This document shows positions 15,844 to 23,282 of a DNA stretch of 37,438 nucleotides, in pieces (the first letter of the stretch is position 1; every line of letters begins with the position of its first letter). Under the pieces are notes generated by a model. That model was given only the letters and a program-made list of their open reading frames with translations. It ran no database searches and was not told the origin of the DNA. Source of the stretch: Pseudolabrys sp. (GTDB lineage Bacteria > Pseudomonadota > Alphaproteobacteria > Rhizobiales > Xanthobacteraceae); assembly GCA_009694265.1 (NCBI GenBank), contig SHVM01000015.1:1-37438 (forward strand), in the 5' to 3' direction. The translations under genes were made by a program, and so were the position numbers.

Positions 15844-16761
15844 TTAGGCAACCGGCGTGGAAGGCGCGGGCTTGCCCACTTTGCGCTCGCGATTGAGCAA
15901 ATAAAGCCCCGACGACACCACAATCAGCCCACCCACGATGGTCCATCGGTGCGGCACATCGCCAAAGACCAGAAAACCCAGCGCCGTCGTCCACACCATC
16001 TGGGTATAAATGAACGGCGCCAGCACCGAGGCCGGTGCGAGGCGGTGGCCTACAATCAACAAATAATGCCCGCCGCTCCCAAGCGCGCCAATCAACACCA
16101 TCAACGCAACAATGAGACCATTCTCCGGCGCGGTCCACACGAAAGGAATGACCGGCAACATGGCGACCGCGCCCACCAGATTGGAATAGAACAGCGTGGT
16201 CTCGTTGGAATCGGTACGCGCCAGCACGCGGGTAGAAATCGCATAGACCGCATAGCAAACGGCGCTGCCGAGCGAGAGCAAGGCGGCCGGATGAATGCCG
16301 CCGAAGCCCGGCCGCGCCACCAGAAGTACGCCAAAAAAGCCGACACCAATCGCGGTCCATCGCCGCCAGCCGACCCACTCGCCCAGCAGCGGACCGCACA
16401 GCACCGCCACGATGAACGGCGTGGAAAAAAGAATCGACAACGCTTCGTCGAGCTGCAGATAACGCAGCGCGGTAAAATTCAGCGCCGTAGAAAAGAGAAG
16501 CAGCGCCGAGCGCCCGATCTGCAGGAATGGCCGGCGCGTCACCAGCATCCCCGGATGGTTGATCGGATTTGCGATGAGCAAAGCCAGCAGGAACGCGCCG
16601 GTGTAGCGCGCCCACACCACCTGCATCGTATCCATGTGATGATTGAGATATTTCCCGGTGGCATCGAGACAGGCAAACAGCGCCACCGCACCGCACATCA
16701 AGGCGATGCCAATGAGGCGCTGGCGGCGCTGGTGCGCAAATTCTGTTTTCGTGGGCATCAT
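15844..16761 (-). CDS. EamA/DMT-family transporter
   Basis: The 305-residue protein has about ten hydrophobic segments arranged as two EamA repeats, roughly residues 15-145 and 158-290. Landmarks are the segments FTALRYLQLDEALSILFSTPFIVAVL and ALGSGGHYLLIVGHRLAPASVLAPFIYTQMV, typical of drug/metabolite transporters. It should be an inner-membrane exporter or importer of a small metabolite; the substrate is unknown. Two adjacent ATG codons (16761 and 16758) could start it, and no strong ribosome site separates them. It is divergent from the first TauE/SafE gene, whose promoter begins 11 bases away. Confidence 0.88.
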   Translation of the reverse strand: MMPTKTEFAHQRRQRLIGIALMCGAVALFACLDATGKYLNHHMDTMQVVWARYTGAFLLALLIANPINHPGMLVTRRPFLQIGRSALLLFSTALNFTALRYLQLDEALSILFSTPFIVAVLCGPLLGEWVGWRRWTAIGVGFFGVLLVARPGFGGIHPAALLSLGSAVCYAVYAISTRVLARTDSNETTLFYSNLVGAVAMLPVIPFVWTAPENGLIVALMVLIGALGSGGHYLLIVGHRLAPASVLAPFIYTQMVWTTALGFLVFGDVPHRWTIVGGLIVVSSGLYLLNRERKVGKPAPSTPVA

Positions 16762-16771
16762 GTCGAATGAA

Positions 16772-16886
16772 TTGAATTGGCTTCGGGTGCTGCTATACTC
16801 GTTTCACAGGGGTATTAGCAGCCTCCCCTCGAGATGGCAGCCATCCATTCAAGCGCTGGTCACTTCGTTCTACTTAGGGGCGACCT
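16772..16886 (+). promoter_or_regulatory. Promoter and structured leader 1 (TauE/SafE paralogue A)
   Basis: A -35 TTGAAT (16772-16777) and -10 TATACT (16794-16799) with 16-base spacing would start transcription near 16806. The leader then begins with AGGGG (16808-16812), which pairs with CCCCT (16825-16829). A GATGG/CCATC hairpin follows at about 16833-16845. GGTC (16858-16861) pairs with GACC (16882-16885), enclosing the Shine-Dalgarno AGGGG (16876-16880). CCCCT could alternatively pair with that Shine-Dalgarno, which would make a translational switch. Two more copies of the same layout occur at 17613 and 18474. Folding was done by eye. Confidence 0.65.
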
Positions 16887-17621
16887 ATGGATGGCACGGT
16901 TCTAGCGCTTTTTCTCGCATCGATATTCTTCGGCGGCATCGTCTCCGGCCTGGCCGGTTTCGCCATGGGCCTCGTCGTTTCCGGCATCTGGCTGCACATC
17001 CTAACGCCGATCCAGACCGCGGCCCTGATCGTGGGCTACGGCCTGCTGGTACAGAGCTACAGCATCTGGACGCTGCGGCATGCCTTGCGTTGGCGCACGG
17101 TCGCCCCGTTCATCCTCGGCGGCGCATTGGGCGTTCCGCTGGGAACGGCGCTGCTTAGTTACATCGATCCGGCCTATCTGCGCATCGGCGTCGGCCTGCT
17201 GCTGATCGTCTACAGCATCTACAGCCTGGCGCGGCCGCACCTGAAGCGGATGCATGCCGGCTTCGCCGTCGAAACCGGCGTCGGCATGATCAACGGGATG
17301 ATGGGCGGCCTGACCGGACTGGCCGGACCCTTCATCACCATCTGGTGCCAATTGCGCGGCTGGCCGAAGGACGAACAGCGCGCGATTTTCCAGCCGGTGA
17401 TTCTCGCGACTTTCGTGTTGAGCGCCGTATCGCTGAGTGTCGCCGGAGCCGTCACCGCTGAATTGACCAGGCTCTATGTCTACGGCCTGCCTTTTCTGGC
17501 CGCCGGCGTATGGACCGGGATCAAGCTATACGGACATCTCGACGATGCCGCCTTCCGCAAAGTCGTCCTGGTGCTGCTACTGATTTCCGGATTTGTGCTG
17601 GTGGTGCCGGAATTGCTTTAA
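16887..17621 (+). CDS. TauE/SafE-family anion exporter, paralogue A
   Basis: The 244-residue protein has about eight hydrophobic segments in two TauE/SafE repeats. The first contains GGIVSGLAGFAMGLVVSGIWLHIL and the second GMINGMMGGLTGLAGPFITIW, the duplicated glycine-rich signature. The family exports sulfite, sulfoacetate or related sulfur-containing anions across the inner membrane. It is closely similar to the next gene (shared WPKDEQRAIFQPV-type stretch, identical MDGTVL start and leader), so the pair arose by tandem duplication. ATG 16887 has AGGGG at good spacing. Its own stop codon lies inside the promoter of the second copy. Confidence 0.88.
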   Translation: MDGTVLALFLASIFFGGIVSGLAGFAMGLVVSGIWLHILTPIQTAALIVGYGLLVQSYSIWTLRHALRWRTVAPFILGGALGVPLGTALLSYIDPAYLRIGVGLLLIVYSIYSLARPHLKRMHAGFAVETGVGMINGMMGGLTGLAGPFITIWCQLRGWPKDEQRAIFQPVILATFVLSAVSLSVAGAVTAELTRLYVYGLPFLAAGVWTGIKLYGHLDDAAFRKVVLVLLLISGFVLVVPELL

Positions 17622-17723
17622 CTTCGTTATGTGGTATGCCGTTCGCGCAGGGGTCATTTCAGCCTCCCCTCGAGATGGACGCCATCCATCCAAGCGCTGG
17701 TCAACTCCTTACAGGAGCGACCT
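17613..17723 (+). promoter_or_regulatory. Promoter and structured leader 2 (TauE/SafE paralogue B)
   Basis: A -35 TTGCTT (17613-17618) overlaps the end of the upstream gene, with -10 TATGCC (17635-17640) 16 bases on. The leader starts AGGGG (17649-17653), pairing with CCCCT (17666-17670), then a GATGG/CCATC hairpin. GGTC (17699-17702) pairs with GACC (17719-17722), with CTCC/GGAG pairing inside it that covers the Shine-Dalgarno AGGAG (17713-17717). Compared with leader 1, the distal loop is four bases shorter and both sides of the Shine-Dalgarno stem changed together, which supports the RNA structure. Confidence 0.65.
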
Positions 17724-18464
17724 ATGGATGGCACGGTACTCGGACTTTTTCTTCTCGCTACATTTCTCGGCGGTTTCACCAGCGGCCTGACGGGCTTCGC
17801 GGCCGGTTTAGTTGTGTCCGGCATCTGGCTACACATCATCACGCCGCTGCAAACGGCGGTGCTGATCGCCGCTTACGGCGTGGTCAACCAGTCCTATGGC
17901 ATCTGGAAAGTCCGCAATGCGTTGCAGTGGCGGCGGATCTTGCCGTTCATCATCGGCGGCGCCGTCGGCGTTCCGCTCGGCGCCTATCTGGTGACGTTTC
18001 TCAATCCCGCATACGTGCGCATCGGCGTCGGCGTATTGTTGATCTTGTATAGCACCTACAATCTCGCGCGGCCCACCATCACGGCTATCAAGTCCAATGC
18101 GGCGACCGATACCGGCATCGGCGTCTTGAACGGGCTGCTCGGCGGCCTCACCGGCCTTGGCGGAGTCATTAGTACGATCTGGGTCCAGCTCGGCGGCGGG
18201 CCGAAAGATGCCCAGCGCGCGATATTTCAGCCCGTGCTGTTCATCACCATGACGATGGCCACGCTGACCTTCGCTTCGGCGGGCCATCTCTTCAATGCCG
18301 ACATCCTCAAGCTTTTCTTCATGGGCTTGCCGGCGCTGCTGCTGGGCCTGTGGGTCGGCGTCAAACTCTATGGAAGATTAGACGATGCGGCGTTTCGTAA
18401 GGCCATTCTCATCTTGCTGCTGATTTCCGGATTCTCGCTGATTGTGCCGGCGTTTTTTCGATGA
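17724..18464 (+). CDS. TauE/SafE-family anion exporter, paralogue B
   Basis: The 246-residue paralogue of the preceding gene keeps the two glycine-rich repeats (GGFTSGLTGFAAGLVVSGIWLHII and LNGLLGGLTGLGGVISTIW) and about eight membrane segments. ATG 17724 is preceded by AGGAG. Divergence from copy A is concentrated in the loops and in the second half (GGGPKDAQRAIFQPVL). That fits different substrates, or different sulfur oxyanions, but is not proof. Together with the downstream rhodanese-ChrB and ChrA genes it suggests an oxyanion/sulfur stress locus. Confidence 0.88.
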   Translation: MDGTVLGLFLLATFLGGFTSGLTGFAAGLVVSGIWLHIITPLQTAVLIAAYGVVNQSYGIWKVRNALQWRRILPFIIGGAVGVPLGAYLVTFLNPAYVRIGVGVLLILYSTYNLARPTITAIKSNAATDTGIGVLNGLLGGLTGLGGVISTIWVQLGGGPKDAQRAIFQPVLFITMTMATLTFASAGHLFNADILKLFFMGLPALLLGLWVGVKLYGRLDDAAFRKAILILLLISGFSLIVPAFFR

Positions 18465-18473
18465 CTGAACGCC

Positions 18474-18586
18474 TTGCTGACGCGCCGGTAGTGCGTTAGA
18501 GTTTTTTGTGGGGCCAGCGGCGGTCGCCCCATGCTTTTAAGGCTTGCGAGCCCAAGCACCGTCTCCTTCGTTCACGGAGGGGACCT
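18474..18586 (+). promoter_or_regulatory. Promoter and structured leader 3 (rhodanese-ChrB gene)
   Basis: A -35 TTGCTG (18474-18479) and a -10-like TTAGAG (18496-18501) again have 16-base spacing. The leader begins with TGGGGC (18509-18514), pairing with GCCCCA (18526-18531). A GGCT-TGCG-AGCC tetraloop hairpin (18541-18552) lies within an outer GCTT/AAGC pairing. CTCC (18563-18566) pairs with GGAG (18576-18579) around TTCGTTCAC, covering the Shine-Dalgarno, and the leader ends ACCTATG. The primary sequence differs from leaders 1 and 2 while the order and type of pairings is the same, so this is the most informative copy. Confidence 0.6.
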
Positions 18587-19411
18587 ATGCTGTCTCCAAA
18601 CTTTTCGTTCTCACCCAAAGAACTCTGGCACTTGATTGGCACGGCGGATGCGCCGCAGATCGTCGATGTGCGGCGACGAGACATTTATGAGTCCACGCCG
18701 GGTCTGTTACCCGCCTCCATTTGGCAAGATCCGGCCGCGCTCGCGCAATGGATCGCAACGCTCGACCGGCAGCGCCCGATTGTCGTTGCCTGCAAAGCCG
18801 GCAAGGAGCTCAGCCAGTTCGTCACCGCCGAGCTGCGTAGCGCCGGCTACGAGGCCGCCATGCTTGAGGGCGGCTATGCGGCCTGGAGCGAGGCCGGACT
18901 GCCGATGGTCGACCGCAAGACCTTCGAACGTTTTGCACCGCGCCGCCCCAGCGTCTGGGTAACGCGGCGGCGGCCGAAAATCGACCGCATCGCCTGCCCG
19001 TGGCTGATCCGGCGTTTCATCGACGCCGACGCGAAAATCCTGTTCGTCGATCCGGCCTATGTCGAAGCCTCCGCCGCCGAGGTCGGCGGCATCCCGTTCG
19101 ACATTGCCAATGTCGAGATTTCGCACGACGGAGAGCGCTGCAGCTTCGACACCATGCTCAAGCTGTTCGGCCTGGAAAGTGAGCCTTCGCTGGCGCGCCT
19201 CGCCTTGATCGTGCGCGGCGCCGATACCGCGCGGCCCGACCTCGCGCCGGAAGCGGCGGGCCTGCATGCGATTTCGCTTGGCCTGTCAGCACTTGCCGGC
19301 GACGACGATCATGGGCTGCTCACCCGCGGTTTCATGGTCTACGATGCGCTGTTCGCCTGGCTGCGACTCGCCGCCGAGGAACGCCACAATTGGCCCGTGA
19401 AAGCTGCATGA
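18587..19411 (+). CDS. Rhodanese-ChrB fusion protein (chromate resistance)
   Basis: The 274-residue product has a rhodanese domain at about 10-108, with IVDVRR at 25-30 and the active-site loop ACKAGKE containing C69. The ChrB C-terminal domain spans about 121-262 (WVTRRRPKIDRIACPWLIRRFID, ISHDGERCSFDTM). ChrB proteins accompany the exporter ChrA and are linked to chromate sensing or reduction. Rhodanese domains move sulfane sulfur through a cysteine persulfide. ATG 18587 has GGAGGGG upstream; a longer in-frame start at 18506 would run through the structured leader and has no ribosome site. It is followed by chrA after one base, so the two are one operon. Confidence 0.88.
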   Translation: MLSPNFSFSPKELWHLIGTADAPQIVDVRRRDIYESTPGLLPASIWQDPAALAQWIATLDRQRPIVVACKAGKELSQFVTAELRSAGYEAAMLEGGYAAWSEAGLPMVDRKTFERFAPRRPSVWVTRRRPKIDRIACPWLIRRFIDADAKILFVDPAYVEASAAEVGGIPFDIANVEISHDGERCSFDTMLKLFGLESEPSLARLALIVRGADTARPDLAPEAAGLHAISLGLSALAGDDDHGLLTRGFMVYDALFAWLRLAAEERHNWPVKAA

Positions 19412-19412
19412 C

Positions 19413-20729
19413 ATGAACACTGCGCCAAAGCCTACTTTCGCCGAAGCGTTCAAGGTCTGGCTGGAGATCGGCTGCATCAATTTCGGCGGGCCGGCGGCGC
19501 AAATCGCGTTGATGCATCGCGTCGTGGTTGACGAGAAAAAATGGGTCGACGAAGCGCGTTTCCTGCACGCGCTTAATTTCTGCATGCTGCTGCCGGGGCC
19601 GGAGGCGCAGAAACTTGCGACCTATCTGGGCTGGCTGCTGCATGGCGTGCGCGGCGGATTGGTATCCGGCATATTGTTCGTGCTGCCGGGCGCGCTCTTC
19701 ATGCTGGGCCTGAGCCTGCTTTACGCATTGGGGCGCGGTATCTCGGTCGTGGACGGCGCGCTGTTCGGCATCAAGGCCGCCGTGCTGGTGATCGTGGTCG
19801 AGGCGCTAATTCGCATCGGCAAGCGCGCGCTCAAGACTTCTCTCCTGCTTGGGCTGGCGGCGGCAGCCTTTGCCGGCATTTTCTTTCTGGCGCTGCCGTT
19901 TCCGCTGATCGTAGCGGCGGCCGCGCTGGTTGGTTATCTGGTGGCGCGCCGAACGCCATCGCAACTTGGTCTCGCTAATACAAATATCGACGTACCGCCG
20001 CCAGCTAAAAACCGCTGGCGGCAATTCGCCGTCGCGTCGCTGGTCGGTTTGCTGGTGTGGTGGGCGCCGGTGGCGCTCGCGGCGCTCATCATTGGGCCGC
20101 AGCATGTGCTGGTGAGCATCGGAATTTTCTTCTCGAAGCTCTCGGTGGTGAGTTTCGGCGGTGCCTATGCGCTGCTCGCTTACATGGCGCAGGAGGCGGT
20201 GCAGACCTACGGATGGATGACCGCGCCGGAGATGGTGGATGGGCTCGGCCTCGCCGAAACCACGCCGGGCCCGCTCATCCTGGTGACGCAATTTGTAGGC
20301 TTCCTGGCTGCGTTCCGCGAGGCTGCGCCGTTCTCTCCGATTGCCGCCGGCGTGCTTGGCGCCGCCATGACGACATGGGTGACCTTCGTGCCAAGCATGC
20401 TGTGGATTTTCGCTGGCGCGCCCTTCGTCGAGCGGCTGCGCGCCAATCGCCAGCTGTCCGGCGCACTGGCCGCCATCACCGCGGCGGTCGTAGGCGTCAT
20501 CCTCAATCTAACCGTCTGGTTCGCGCTGCATGTGCTGTTCGGCAAGGTGACCGAGATGCATGCCGGTCCGCTGCGCTGGTACGCTTTCGATCCACTGGCG
20601 CTCGATATCCGCGCGACTGTATTGGCGGGGATAGCCGCCGCACTCGCCTTCGGCCTGCACCGCAGCTTGATCGAGGTGGTGCTGGCGATGGCGGCGCTCG
20701 GCGTCGTCGCGCAATATGTTTTGGGCTAA
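19413..20729 (+). CDS. chrA: Chromate efflux transporter ChrA
   Basis: The 438-residue protein is a long-chain, two-repeat CHR transporter. The first CHR domain starts EAFKVWLEIGCINFGGPAAQIALMH and includes LPGPEAQKLATYLGW. The second starts FFSKLSVVSFGGAYALLAYM and includes ETTPGPLILVTQFVGF. Such proteins expel chromate, a sulfate analogue, from the cytoplasm using the membrane potential. It is translationally adjacent to the rhodanese-ChrB gene (one base apart). It ends with a four-base convergent overlap with the ABC permease gene. Confidence 0.95.
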   Translation: MNTAPKPTFAEAFKVWLEIGCINFGGPAAQIALMHRVVVDEKKWVDEARFLHALNFCMLLPGPEAQKLATYLGWLLHGVRGGLVSGILFVLPGALFMLGLSLLYALGRGISVVDGALFGIKAAVLVIVVEALIRIGKRALKTSLLLGLAAAAFAGIFFLALPFPLIVAAAALVGYLVARRTPSQLGLANTNIDVPPPAKNRWRQFAVASLVGLLVWWAPVALAALIIGPQHVLVSIGIFFSKLSVVSFGGAYALLAYMAQEAVQTYGWMTAPEMVDGLGLAETTPGPLILVTQFVGFLAAFREAAPFSPIAAGVLGAAMTTWVTFVPSMLWIFAGAPFVERLRANRQLSGALAAITAAVVGVILNLTVWFALHVLFGKVTEMHAGPLRWYAFDPLALDIRATVLAGIAAALAFGLHRSLIEVVLAMAALGVVAQYVLG

Positions 20730-21508
20730 CGCTCACGCCTGACCGCGCTCTCATGCCAGCGGCGCAACGCGAGATGCGAGAGCGCCGACAGCACAAAGAA
20801 GATCGCGACGCCCGCCAACGACAACAGCAGCAGCGCCGCGAACATGCGCGGGATGTTGAGGCGGTAACCGGATTCAGCGATGCGGTAGGCAAGCCCCGAG
20901 CCGGCGCCGGCCGAGCCGGCGGCAATCTCGGCCACCACCGCGCCGATCAACGACAACCCGCCGGCGATCCGCAGGCCGGCGAGCATCTGTGGCAGCGCCG
21001 CCGGTAGCTTCAGATTCCACAGCACCTGCCAGCGCGAGGCCTTGTACAGATCGAACAGCGCGATGAGATTGTGGTCGACCGAGTTGAGGCCAAGCGTGGT
21101 GTTGGCCAGCACCGGGAAGAACGCCACGATCCATGCACAGGCCAGCACCGCCAGTGGCTGCGGCAGATAGATCAGCAATAGCGGCGCGACGGCGACGATC
21201 GGCGTCACTTGCAGGATCACCGCGTAAGGATATAGCGAATATTCGAACAACCGCCATTGGTTGAATGCAATTGCCAGCGCGACGCCGCCGAATGCGGCCA
21301 GCAGGAAACCTTCGAAGGTAATGGTGAGAGTCACCAGCAGCGATTGCCACAACAGGCTGCTGTCGGCGATCAAGGTTGCCAGCACCAGGCCCGGGCCCGG
21401 CAGCACGTAGGGTGGAATAGCGCACAGACGCACGATCTGATCCCAGGCCAGCACGACCAGCGCCAGTGTCACAACCGGCAATCCGATGCGAAGCGCTCGC
21501 TCGCTCAT
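20726..21508 (-). CDS. ABC transporter permease (NMT1/THI5-type system)
   Basis: The 260-residue inner-membrane permease has about six hydrophobic segments. The EAA-type cytoplasmic loop is visible in DLYKASRWQVLWNLKLPAALPQMLAGLRIAGGLSLIGAVVAEI. The subfamily is that of SsuC/TauC/ThiX-like importers. ATG 21508 overlaps the ATPase TGA by four bases (ATGA), so it is the last gene of the three-gene importer unit. It likely forms a homodimer that receives ligand from the periplasmic binding protein encoded two genes upstream. Confidence 0.9.
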   Translation of the reverse strand: MSERALRIGLPVVTLALVVLAWDQIVRLCAIPPYVLPGPGLVLATLIADSSLLWQSLLVTLTITFEGFLLAAFGGVALAIAFNQWRLFEYSLYPYAVILQVTPIVAVAPLLLIYLPQPLAVLACAWIVAFFPVLANTTLGLNSVDHNLIALFDLYKASRWQVLWNLKLPAALPQMLAGLRIAGGLSLIGAVVAEIAAGSAGAGSGLAYRIAESGYRLNIPRMFAALLLLSLAGVAIFFVLSALSHLALRRWHESAVRRER

Positions 21509-22275
21509 GGCACGCCACCCGCCATGGCTTGGCTGAGCGCCTCGGAGACCGTGCGGCAAAAACCGGCATATTCCGGTGATGTCCGAAAGCGTTCGTCGCG
21601 CGGATAAGGCGCCGGGATCGCGATTTCGGCAAACACGCGGCCGGGACGCGGCGTCATCACCACGATGCGTTGCGACAGATAGACCGACTCAAACACCGAA
21701 TGGGTGACAAAGATTACCGTGCGGCGAAGTTGCTGCCACAGCACCAGCAGATCGTTGTTAAGCTTGAAGCGGGTGATTTCGTCGAGCGCGGCGAACGGCT
21801 CGTCCATCAGCAGCAATTCCGGCTCGGTCACCAGCGCGCGGGCAATCGACGTCCGCATCCGCATGCCGCCGGACAATTCGCGCGGATAGGCTCTGGCAAA
21901 ATCGGCAAGTCCGACGCGCGCAATCGCCTGCGTCACCGCGGCGCGCGACCGCGCTTCATCGGCATCGCTCAGTTTGAGCGGCAGCCGCACATTGGCGGCG
22001 ACATCGGCCCACGGCATCAAGGTCGGCTCCTGGAACACAAAGCCGATATGGCCTGCTCCCGCGCCGCCCGGTCCTTCGACCGACCCCTCGGACGCCGTGC
22101 TCAAGCCCGCGACGATACGCAGCGCACTCGACTTGCCGCAGCCGGATGGTCCCAGCAGCGACACGAATTCGCCGGAGCCAACATCGAGATTGAAGCGATC
22201 GAGCGCGACCGTGCCACTCTCGAACGTCTTGCCGACATTGCGCAGCGAAACGATTGTCTTGTCCGGCGAACTCAT
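21505..22275 (-). CDS. ABC transporter ATP-binding protein
   Basis: The 256-residue ATPase has Walker A GPSGCGKS at 42-49, the Q-loop FQEPTLMPWADV at 81-92, the signature LSGGMRMR at about 134-141, Walker B LLLMDEPFAALDE at 154-166, and the switch histidine in FVTHSVFE. It belongs to the nitrate/sulfonate/taurine/HMP group and energises the adjacent permease. It overlaps the substrate-binding gene upstream and the permease downstream by four bases each, so stoichiometric expression is expected. Confidence 0.94.
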   Translation of the reverse strand: MSSPDKTIVSLRNVGKTFESGTVALDRFNLDVGSGEFVSLLGPSGCGKSSALRIVAGLSTASEGSVEGPGGAGAGHIGFVFQEPTLMPWADVAANVRLPLKLSDADEARSRAAVTQAIARVGLADFARAYPRELSGGMRMRTSIARALVTEPELLLMDEPFAALDEITRFKLNNDLLVLWQQLRRTVIFVTHSVFESVYLSQRIVVMTPRPGRVFAEIAIPAPYPRDERFRTSPEYAGFCRTVSEALSQAMAGGVP

Positions 22276-23282
22276 TTCGGCTGCAACTCGACGCCGACGC
22301 CCTTGTTGACGAATTGCAGAGTATAGGCGCGTTTGTAATCGATGCCCGCCTTGACCACGCCGGCGCGCACCATCTTGTCGAAGAAATTCTTCATATGCGC
22401 ATCGGTCATGGCGCCAATGCCGAGCTTGAGCGAGTCGCCGGAATCCACGATGCCGTAATCCTTCATCTTGGCAATGGAATACACGAGCAGCGCGTCGGTC
22501 ATTTCCGGATTATGTTTCTTGATCAGGTCGTTGCCCGGCCGGCTGTCGCCATAGAGATAGCGGTACCAGCCGATGGCCGAGGCATCGACAAAACGCTGCA
22601 CCAGATCAGGCTTCTTCTCCACCAGATCGCGACGGGTCTCGATCAGCGTCGAATAGGCATTGAAGCCCTCATCGGCGAGCAGGAACACTTTCGGTTTGAA
22701 GCCGCCTTGCGTTTCGATCGCGTAGGGTTCGGAGGTGACATAGCCCTGCATGGCGGAATGCTTGTCGGCCAGAAACGGCTGCACATTGAAGGTGTAGGGC
22801 TTCACCTTCGATTCATCGAAACCAAAGTCGGCTTTGAGCCACTGGAAATAGCTGACCATGCCTTCCTTGGAGACGAACAGTGTGAGTTTTTTCAGGTCCT
22901 CGAATTTCGCAACACCCGGATGCGCGATCAGCACCTGCGGATCCTTCTGGAAACTCGCCGCTACCACCACGGTCGGAATGTTGTGCTCGACCGCATCGAA
23001 GGATTGCAGCGTGTTGGCGCTCATGAAGAAGTCGAGCTTGCCGACCGGCAACAGGACGCGGTTGTTCACGTTCGGCCCGCCCGGCAGGATGGTGACATCG
23101 AGACCGTATTTGGCATAGGTGCCATCGGCGAGTGCCTGGTAGAAGCCGCCGTGTTCGGCCTCCGCCACCCAATTGGTGCCGAAACGAACCTTGTCCAGCG
23201 TTTGGGTGTGCGCCGGCGGCAGCGTCAGCGTGCCAGCGAGCACCGCAGCAGCCGCGATCCTGCAAAACCTGGTCAATTGCAT
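22272..23282 (-). CDS. ABC transporter substrate-binding protein (NMT1/THI5-like)
   Basis: The 336-residue periplasmic protein begins with a signal peptide cleaved near residue 26 (AHTQ). The mature start VRFGTNWVAEAEHGGFYQALADGTYAKYGLDVTIL is the hallmark of the NMT1/THI5-like family, whose members bind thiamine-pyrimidine precursors, sulfonates or other small organics. It is the first gene of the importer unit. Ligand identity is open; because the window also encodes a thiamine-diphosphate E1 enzyme, a pyrimidine ligand is conceivable but not shown. Confidence 0.88.
   Translation of the reverse strand: MQLTRFCRIAAAAVLAGTLTLPPAHTQTLDKVRFGTNWVAEAEHGGFYQALADGTYAKYGLDVTILPGGPNVNNRVLLPVGKLDFFMSANTLQSFDAVEHNIPTVVVAASFQKDPQVLIAHPGVAKFEDLKKLTLFVSKEGMVSYFQWLKADFGFDESKVKPYTFNVQPFLADKHSAMQGYVTSEPYAIETQGGFKPKVFLLADEGFNAYSTLIETRRDLVEKKPDLVQRFVDASAIGWYRYLYGDSRPGNDLIKKHNPEMTDALLVYSIAKMKDYGIVDSGDSLKLGIGAMTDAHMKNFFDKMVRAGVVKAGIDYKRAYTLQFVNKGVGVELQPK

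Follow-up and report, generated by a model that had tools for sequence, protein, structure and literature searches.

Three chrB-type leader RNAs in a TauE/SafE and chr gene cluster of Pseudolabrys sp.: candidate translational switches built on a shared pseudoknot strand

Known chrB RNAs and the leaders of the Pseudolabrys cluster

The chrB RNAs, among them the families chrB-a (RF03078) and chrB-b (RF03086), are listed in Rfam as cis-regulatory. Publications or Rfam already cover the family itself, the presence of a pseudoknot and, for chrB-a, a hairpin that encloses the Shine-Dalgarno (SD) sequence; in particular, Rivas 2020 (PMC7657543) reports a covarying pseudoknot in chrB RNA, so that the pseudoknot result given below is a confirmation, not a discovery. 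A ligand was not found in the open-licence literature searched, most subscription papers lying outside the scope of that search, and chrB seems to be an orphan RNA class. Here we analyze a stretch of 37,438 nucleotides from Pseudolabrys sp. (assembly GCA_009694265.1, contig SHVM01000015.1, forward strand; hereafter the window), in which two genes for TauE/SafE exporters and a gene for a rhodanese-ChrB fusion protein are each preceded by a leader RNA of their own (Table 1). Our preferred model, to which we assign a rough probability of 0.55, is that these leaders are translational ON switches in which a pseudoknot, probably stabilized by a ligand, shares a strand with the hairpin that covers the SD sequence. 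The SAM-II, SAM-V and preQ1-II riboswitches are likewise H-type pseudoknot aptamers that lie at the 5' end and act on the SD sequence. Their sequences and targets differ from those of the leaders described here, and their pseudoknot hides the SD sequence (OFF), whereas in the Pseudolabrys leaders it would open it (ON).

All three leaders share one layout, in which the GGGG/CCCC stem P1 is followed by the short hairpin P2, the SD hairpin and the terminal ACCTATG; both this layout and the leader positions agree with a preliminary description of the window. That description, which saw a succession of nested stems, was right about P1, P2 and the SD hairpin and missed the pseudoknot formed by the P1 loop. 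The foot of the SD hairpin is GGTC/GACC in leaders 1 and 2 and GTC/GAC in leader 3. A descriptor combining P1, the pseudoknot and AAG, composed after the three leaders had been seen, matches the window exactly three times, at the leaders, compared to a mean of 0.65 matches in 100 mononucleotide shuffles.

In the Rfam search, leaders 1 and 2 score 40.7 and 41.6 bits, respectively, with the chrB-b model and thus pass its gathering cut-off of 36.5 bits. Leader 3 falls below both Rfam cut-offs (30.5 versus 36.5 bits for RF03086 and 23.4 versus 43.9 bits for RF03078) and therefore, by the Rfam rule, belongs to neither chrB-b nor chrB-a; we call it chrB-type. None of the window leaders reaches the chrB-a cut-off, 23.4 bits being the best score. 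A covariance model denoted R2, built from an alignment of 59 leaders (A2; 42 from a search of the order and 17 from a search of the class) that excludes the three window leaders and contains, in one row (L001), another locus of the same genome, recovers leaders 1, 2 and 3 with E-values of 1.1e-5, 9.5e-7 and 1.8e-7 (28.6, 32.9 and 35.9 bits), the next match in the window scoring 11.3 bits. Thus, leaders 1 to 3 represent one kind of RNA, as the preliminary description had maintained despite the divergence of leader 3. The training set of a further model, R1, included the window leaders, so that its matches to them carry no weight. Most likely, the three leaders are chrB RNAs, a known kind, of which leaders 1 and 2 are clear representatives and leader 3 is an outlier.

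The same preliminary description had suggested membership in the sul1 RNA motif, an assignment that the sulfur-related downstream genes would favor. A search of positions 16700-18700 with a covariance-model library taken to include sul1 gave no hit to this motif at E-values of 5 or below, and two of the leaders exceed the chrB-b cut-off instead; we reject this assignment, which we regard as having hardly any chance of being correct.

The leaders have P1 (GGGG/CCCC), P2, the CAAG motif, the order of parts and the cis-regulatory type in common with chrB-b. The Rfam model of chrB-b spans 49 positions and ends at the 3' strand of the pseudoknot; its structure line lacks the pseudoknot, and the SD hairpin lies outside the model. 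The pseudoknot strand ends with CTGG in leaders 1 and 2, compared to CTGC in chrB-b. With chrB-a, the leaders share P1, a pseudoknot at the same place (GCGAU/AUCGC in chrB-a) and the SD hairpin that follows. Here, the Rfam model itself contains the SD hairpin, the 5' strand of which starts inside AUCGC; the P2 region is unpaired in the structure line, unlike in the window leaders.

Table 1. Leader RNAs, their parts and the adjoining genes in the window
Feature	Position	Strand	Remarks
-10 box TATACT of leader 1	16794..16799	+	consensus match only; -35 TTGAAT from 16772, 16 nt upstream
Leader 1 core, chrB-b RNA (P1, P2, pseudoknot)	16808..16859	+	scores in the text
P1 of leader 1	16809..16812/16825..16828	+	GGGG/CCCC
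Pseudoknot 5' strand GCAGC, P1 loop of leader 1	16818..16822	+	pairs with 16855-16859, 4/5
Pseudoknot 3' strand GCTGG, leader 1	16855..16859	+	last two bases double as foot of the SD hairpin
Hairpin GGTC...GACC over SD AGGGG (16876-16880) of TauE-1	16858..16885	+	predicted fold
TauE/SafE exporter 1 (TauE-1)	16887..17621	+	244 aa; Pfam PF01925, E 6.9e-27
Leader 2 core, chrB-b RNA	17649..17700	+	scores in the text
P1 of leader 2	17650..17653/17666..17669	+	GGGG/CCCC
Pseudoknot 5' strand TCAGC, leader 2	17659..17663	+	pairs with GCTGG 17696-17700, 5/5, one T-G
Hairpin GGTC...GACC with CTCCT/AGGAG over SD of TauE-2	17699..17722	+	predicted fold
TauE/SafE exporter 2 (TauE-2)	17724..18464	+	246 aa; PF01925, E 1.3e-28; 58% identity to exporter 1
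Leader 3 core, chrB-type RNA	18509..18562	+	below both Rfam cut-offs; scores in the text
P1 of leader 3	18510..18513/18527..18530	+	GGGG/CCCC
Pseudoknot 5' strand GCGGT, leader 3	18520..18524	+	pairs with ACCGT 18558-18562, 5/5, one G-T
Hairpin GTCTCC...GGAGGGGAC over SD of rhodanese-ChrB	18561..18584	+	predicted fold, 10 pairs, -15.4 kcal/mol
Rhodanese + ChrB_C fusion protein	18587..19411	+	274 aa; PF00581, E 4.2e-10; PF09828, E 6.6e-45
ChrA chromate transporter family	19413..20729	+	PF02417, E 2e-72; immediately 3' of ChrB

The pseudoknot and the Shine-Dalgarno hairpin

The pseudoknot consists of five base pairs between bases of the P1 loop and the five bases that follow CAAG and one spacer base. 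The fraction of alignment cells in which this helix pairs is 96.6% for 77 leaders aligned by MAFFT without the use of structure (A1), 97.6% for the 59 leaders of A2 and 96.0% of 502 cells for 101 distinct leaders (A3), with compensatory changes in four of the five pairs. Three A3 rows (L106, L108, L113) are out of register at the 3' strand and entered the count unaltered; each scores 4 of 5 pairs with either alignment. The 101 leaders come from the matches in the order, the genus and the window, with the exception of three false or garbled sequences (L035, which lacks the pseudoknot; L004, which lacks the 3' strand; and L095, in which the 3' end is mis-set), and A1 comprises 77 of them, 16 near-identical chrB-a leaders and 8 irregular or long chrB-b leaders being left out. 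For the 101 leaders, the covariation score of the pseudoknot is 0.637, compared to 0.270 after shuffling, and control helices with a slid partner strand pair in only 21-66% of the cells; the slid-partner control retains the relatedness of the sequences, whereas the shuffle control does not. Covariation in multi-genome alignments of the leaders, on which the case for a common RNA element had been staked at the outset, is thus present.

In the predicted folds, the hairpin downstream of the pseudoknot usually contains the SD sequence, and its foot consists of the final bases of the pseudoknot's 3' strand. When 40 bases from this strand onward are folded, its last two bases find a downstream partner in 97 of 104 distinct leaders (all 30 of chrB-a and 67 of 74 of the chrB-b type), compared to 56.1 expected from shuffles that keep dinucleotides. 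The sequence of the hairpin varies by subgroup (GGTC/GACC; GTCTCC/GGAGGGGAC; TGCTCGC/GCGAGCA; TGCGCA/TGCGCA; GCGTCC/GGACGC). The mean energy of the downstream fold is -13.7 kcal/mol for chrB-a and -14.3 kcal/mol for chrB-b, compared to -8.3 and -10.5 kcal/mol, respectively, for shuffled sequences. By a rough estimate that leaves out the penalty for pseudoknot formation and includes some mis-assigned duplexes (that of leader 1 among them), the pseudoknot duplex contributes -4.7 (chrB-a) and -5.2 (chrB-b) kcal/mol, and freeing its strand costs 6.1 and 5.2 kcal/mol, respectively; such similar energies of the competing parts would suit a switch. In the TauE leaders of the genus to which the window belongs, the shared strand often ends with CTGG, the last G of which pairs in the foot of the hairpin and leaves the opening G of the pseudoknot unpaired; under the switch model, these leaders would be expected to shift towards OFF.

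The preferred model can accordingly be spelled out as follows. Each gene would form a cassette with its own RNA and, probably, its own promoter. At the 5' end of the mRNA, P1 and P2 would form a compact fold that is closed by the pseudoknot; once the pseudoknot forms, the SD hairpin would lose its foot and translation would start more easily (ON), and when it does not form, the hairpin would stay closed (OFF). The pseudoknot is probably stabilized by a small molecule or ion that belongs to the stress handled by the target genes, candidates being oxyanions, chromate among them, and sulfur species, for example sulfite or a persulfide. The data show that leaders 1 and 2 belong to the family, that the pseudoknot covaries, that a strand is shared in the predicted folds and which genes are targeted; the promoters and transcript starts, the ligand, the direction of control and its action at translation are inferred. 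The preliminary description spoke of a riboswitch-like translational switch: a common cis-acting layout that could act as such a switch is well supported by covariation and targets, and the leaders are at most candidate riboswitches.

A transcript that starts at P1 is compatible with the sequences upstream of the chrB-b-type leaders. Of 75 distinct members of this type, 49 carry a TANNNT hexamer whose end lies 3-13 nucleotides 5' of the G that begins P1, compared to 9.4 expected, mostly at a distance of 8-10 nucleotides, which fits location of the RNA at the 5' end of the message. Within the window, the -10 box that had been proposed for each leader is a good match only for leader 1 (TATACT); leader 3 has TAGAGT 7 nucleotides 5' of P1, and leader 2 only TATGCC. 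The arrangement TTGAAT-16-TATACT of leader 1 occurs once in the window, compared to 0.7 expected. The window contains three terminator-like sites (2.2 expected), of which two fall within the TauE genes and the third in the interval that separates TauE-2 from leader 3; the scan of the window found none inside any of the three leaders. The stem and T run of the third site (18477-18509) abut leader 3 and overlap its -10 region.

Several observations weigh against the switch model. For the pseudoknot alone, two cruder measures out of five, namely, the number of pairs with double changes (4 versus 3.3 shuffled, with 216 of 500 shuffles as high) and the number of further pair types (12 versus 11.0, with 147 of 500 as high), do not rise above those of the shuffled alignments. 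The first pair is open in 13 of 101 rows, leader 1 included (16 with the three misaligned CTGG rows). The overlap is not seen in 7 of 104 leaders and, where present, is confined to the hairpin foot. With the five pseudoknot bases blocked, the predicted openness of the SD sequence increases only from 0.22 to 0.35 in 70 chrB-b-type leaders and from 0.26 to 0.30 in 29 chrB-a leaders (0.25 and 0.26, respectively, when the five bases before are blocked as a control). In the same set, from which L109 and five leaders lacking a called start are left out, openness is only modestly below that of shuffles (0.22 versus 0.30 for the chrB-b type and 0.26 versus 0.36 for chrB-a); these means are blurred by start codons that were assigned with a simple score and are wrong in some cases (e.g., L008, L013, L084). 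Finally, the chrB-a leaders lack the -10 enrichment (5 of 30 versus 3.5 expected), so that a -10 box at a fixed distance is not supported for this family.

Because both the overlap and the predicted opening are partial, full mutual exclusion of the pseudoknot and the SD hairpin is not supported, and we limit the claim to competition for the shared strand. The same data bear on an alternative whereby the SD hairpin sets a low or temperature-dependent rate of translation, as a fixed element or a thermometer or pH sensor, and the upstream fold only stabilizes the mRNA. Such an element would account for a downstream hairpin that is, on average, more stable than in shuffles and is predicted to stay mostly closed even with the pseudoknot strand blocked; a plain hairpin, however, requires neither a covarying pseudoknot nor the near-fixed spacing and the conserved AAG before it, and the narrow, recurrent set of targets argues for a specific signal. 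We consider this alternative unlikely.

Target genes, candidate signals and control by a protein

Target genes were labeled by similarity to reference proteins, and the rhodanese-ChrB label includes short single-domain rhodaneses of 110-116 amino acids that were labeled without Pfam (e.g., L024, L030, L032, L034, L045, L047). Among the best 30 chrB-a loci, 28 precede rhodanese-ChrB genes and two have unlabeled targets. The 44 chrB-b matches from the order search, one of them from the genome of the window, precede genes for rhodanese-ChrB (14), Cj0069-family proteins (9), TauE (6), ChrA (4), MFS transporters (4), the ornithine-cyclodeaminase family (2), a GH59_C-like protein (1) and unlabeled proteins (4, two of these matches being false). 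The 31 matches outside the window in its genus and its own genome lie before TauE (17), rhodanese-ChrB (4), GH59_C-like (3), MFS (2) and unlabeled (5) genes. Of the 61 matches listed for the class search, the 28 inspected comprise 15 rhodanese-ChrB, 5 MFS, 2 ChrA, 2 ornithine-cyclodeaminase family and 4 other or no targets. A strict chrB-b pattern in named genomes matched at least 119 stretches, of which 80 loci, not a fair sample, were inspected, with at least 31 Cj0069-family, 9 rhodanese-ChrB, 7 MFS, 5 TauE, 4 ChrA and 2 ornithine-cyclodeaminase-family targets and at least 22 others.

The target set (rhodanese-ChrB, ChrA, TauE/SafE, MFS and others) suggests an oxyanion or sulfur stress signal, which is our best guess for the ligand and a tentative one. 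We know of no riboswitch for this class of ligands (chromate, sulfite or related species). Fluoride is a small anion that RNA already recognizes; if chrB RNAs sense chromate or a sulfur oxyanion, the repertoire of RNA would extend to a new kind of small anion. Even more broadly, and just as speculatively, chrB-a, chrB-b and the leader 3 type might constitute one superfamily of small pseudoknot riboswitches, namely, strand-sharing ON switches that sense oxyanions or sulfur species and govern, across Alphaproteobacteria, a stress regulon that comprises exporters and rhodanese as well as superoxide dismutase and ATP-grasp enzymes.

Instead of a small molecule, a protein, either the rhodanese-ChrB product or a host factor, could bind the leader and control translation, with no aptamer involved. 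Protein-bound leaders covary too, and the small size of the pseudoknot as well as the predominance of a single protein family among the targets (the 28 of the 30 best chrB-a loci) would be in line with such control. The ChrB_C domain (PF09828), however, was detected in only 26 of 37 leader genomes and had no match in the other 11 (G090, G094, G224, G268, G338, G350, G362, G402, G472, G596, G643), of which G090, G268, G350 and G362 have a completeness of 90% or more and a contamination of 5% or less. The 37 genomes, which remain from 39 searched after removal of a mistyped genome and another whose leader was false, were chosen by hand, mostly as genomes of the order with a chrB-b but no chrB-a match, so that the proportion of 11 in 37 is not a representative rate. 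In most genomes without ChrB_C, the leader precedes a gene for a short rhodanese, ChrA, MFS, TauE or ornithine-cyclodeaminase-family protein (in G643, no gene was called after the leader). Thus, autoregulation by ChrB_C cannot be general and is rejected as such; the rhodanese domain that is present without ChrB_C in several of these genomes leaves room for a rhodanese-only regulator, and a host factor may also be considered. On balance, control by a protein appears improbable, and we retain the strand-sharing switch as the preferred model.

Pfam analysis of five of the proteins labeled as other identified DUF3182 (L206), an Fe/Mn superoxide dismutase (L195) and a GH59_C-like protein (L164), and assigned no family to the targets of L189 and L225. 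In Bradyrhizobium and relatives, the target families include DUF3182 (L206, assigned by Pfam, and its look-alikes L188 and L180) and Cj0069/DUF6815 (at least 31 loci). PMC4431377 describes DUF3182 as a member of the ATP-grasp group. A literature search turned up no function for either Cj0069 or DUF3182. The L195 leader precedes the superoxide dismutase gene; chrC of the Ochrobactrum chr operon encodes a superoxide dismutase as well.

Spread of the leaders and organization of the cassettes

Among 397 genomes of the order, matches at E <= 0.001 were obtained in 31 with the chrB-b model (24 above the cut-off) and in 106 with the chrB-a model (93 above the cut-off). Among the 40 nearest genomes, chrB-b was detected in 18, that is, in 18 of the 24 genomes of the same genus and in 0 of the 16 others. 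R1, trained with the window leaders, matches 45 of 385 genomes of the class. The 14 control genomes gave no matches at E <= 0.001; at E <= 1, weak chrB-a matches appear in 4 of the 14. The genome of the window contains a further chrB-b leader, on the minus strand of contig C63 (L001/L050:1301-1350), which scores 58.2 bits, higher than the window leaders, and precedes an MFS transporter gene. A TauE leader (L174) was found in a metagenome-bin contig labeled Ramlibacter (Betaproteobacteria) and reflects either transfer or mis-binning.

In the window, the operon with its three cassettes offers the same switch in three natural versions within a single cell, each tied to a different gene. No leader of its own was found for ChrA: the RNA searches, those with Rfam and R2 among them, yielded no match there. 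The TauE, ChrB and ChrA genes recur together in the genus, with 14 of 18 fetched loci either holding both TauE and ChrA or ending early, and some related loci encode two TauE proteins with a leader before each gene (e.g., L113, at 684, 1568 and 2427). In L120, a leftover ChrB leader (1554-1649), followed by a start codon, four more codons and a stop, lies between TauE-1 and the TauE-2 leader, and a similar leftover is present in L129 (6211-6119, minus strand). Such remnants would be expected from leader-gene cassettes that are duplicated and inserted as whole units.

In four loci, chrB-a and chrB-b leaders lie head to head: L052 (G376:C20), L013/L078 (G194:C1), L010/L082 (G171:C140) and G216:C1 (3346278-3346531). 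The chrB-b leader precedes an MFS transporter gene (L052, L013, L010) or a gene for a GH59_C-like protein (G216), and the chrB-a leader precedes rhodanese-ChrB in the L052, L013 and L010 loci. On the minus strand of the window (20726-23282), three genes resembling an ABC uptake system (a permease, an ATPase and an NMT1-like binding protein, with the families assigned by eye only) converge on the chr operon.

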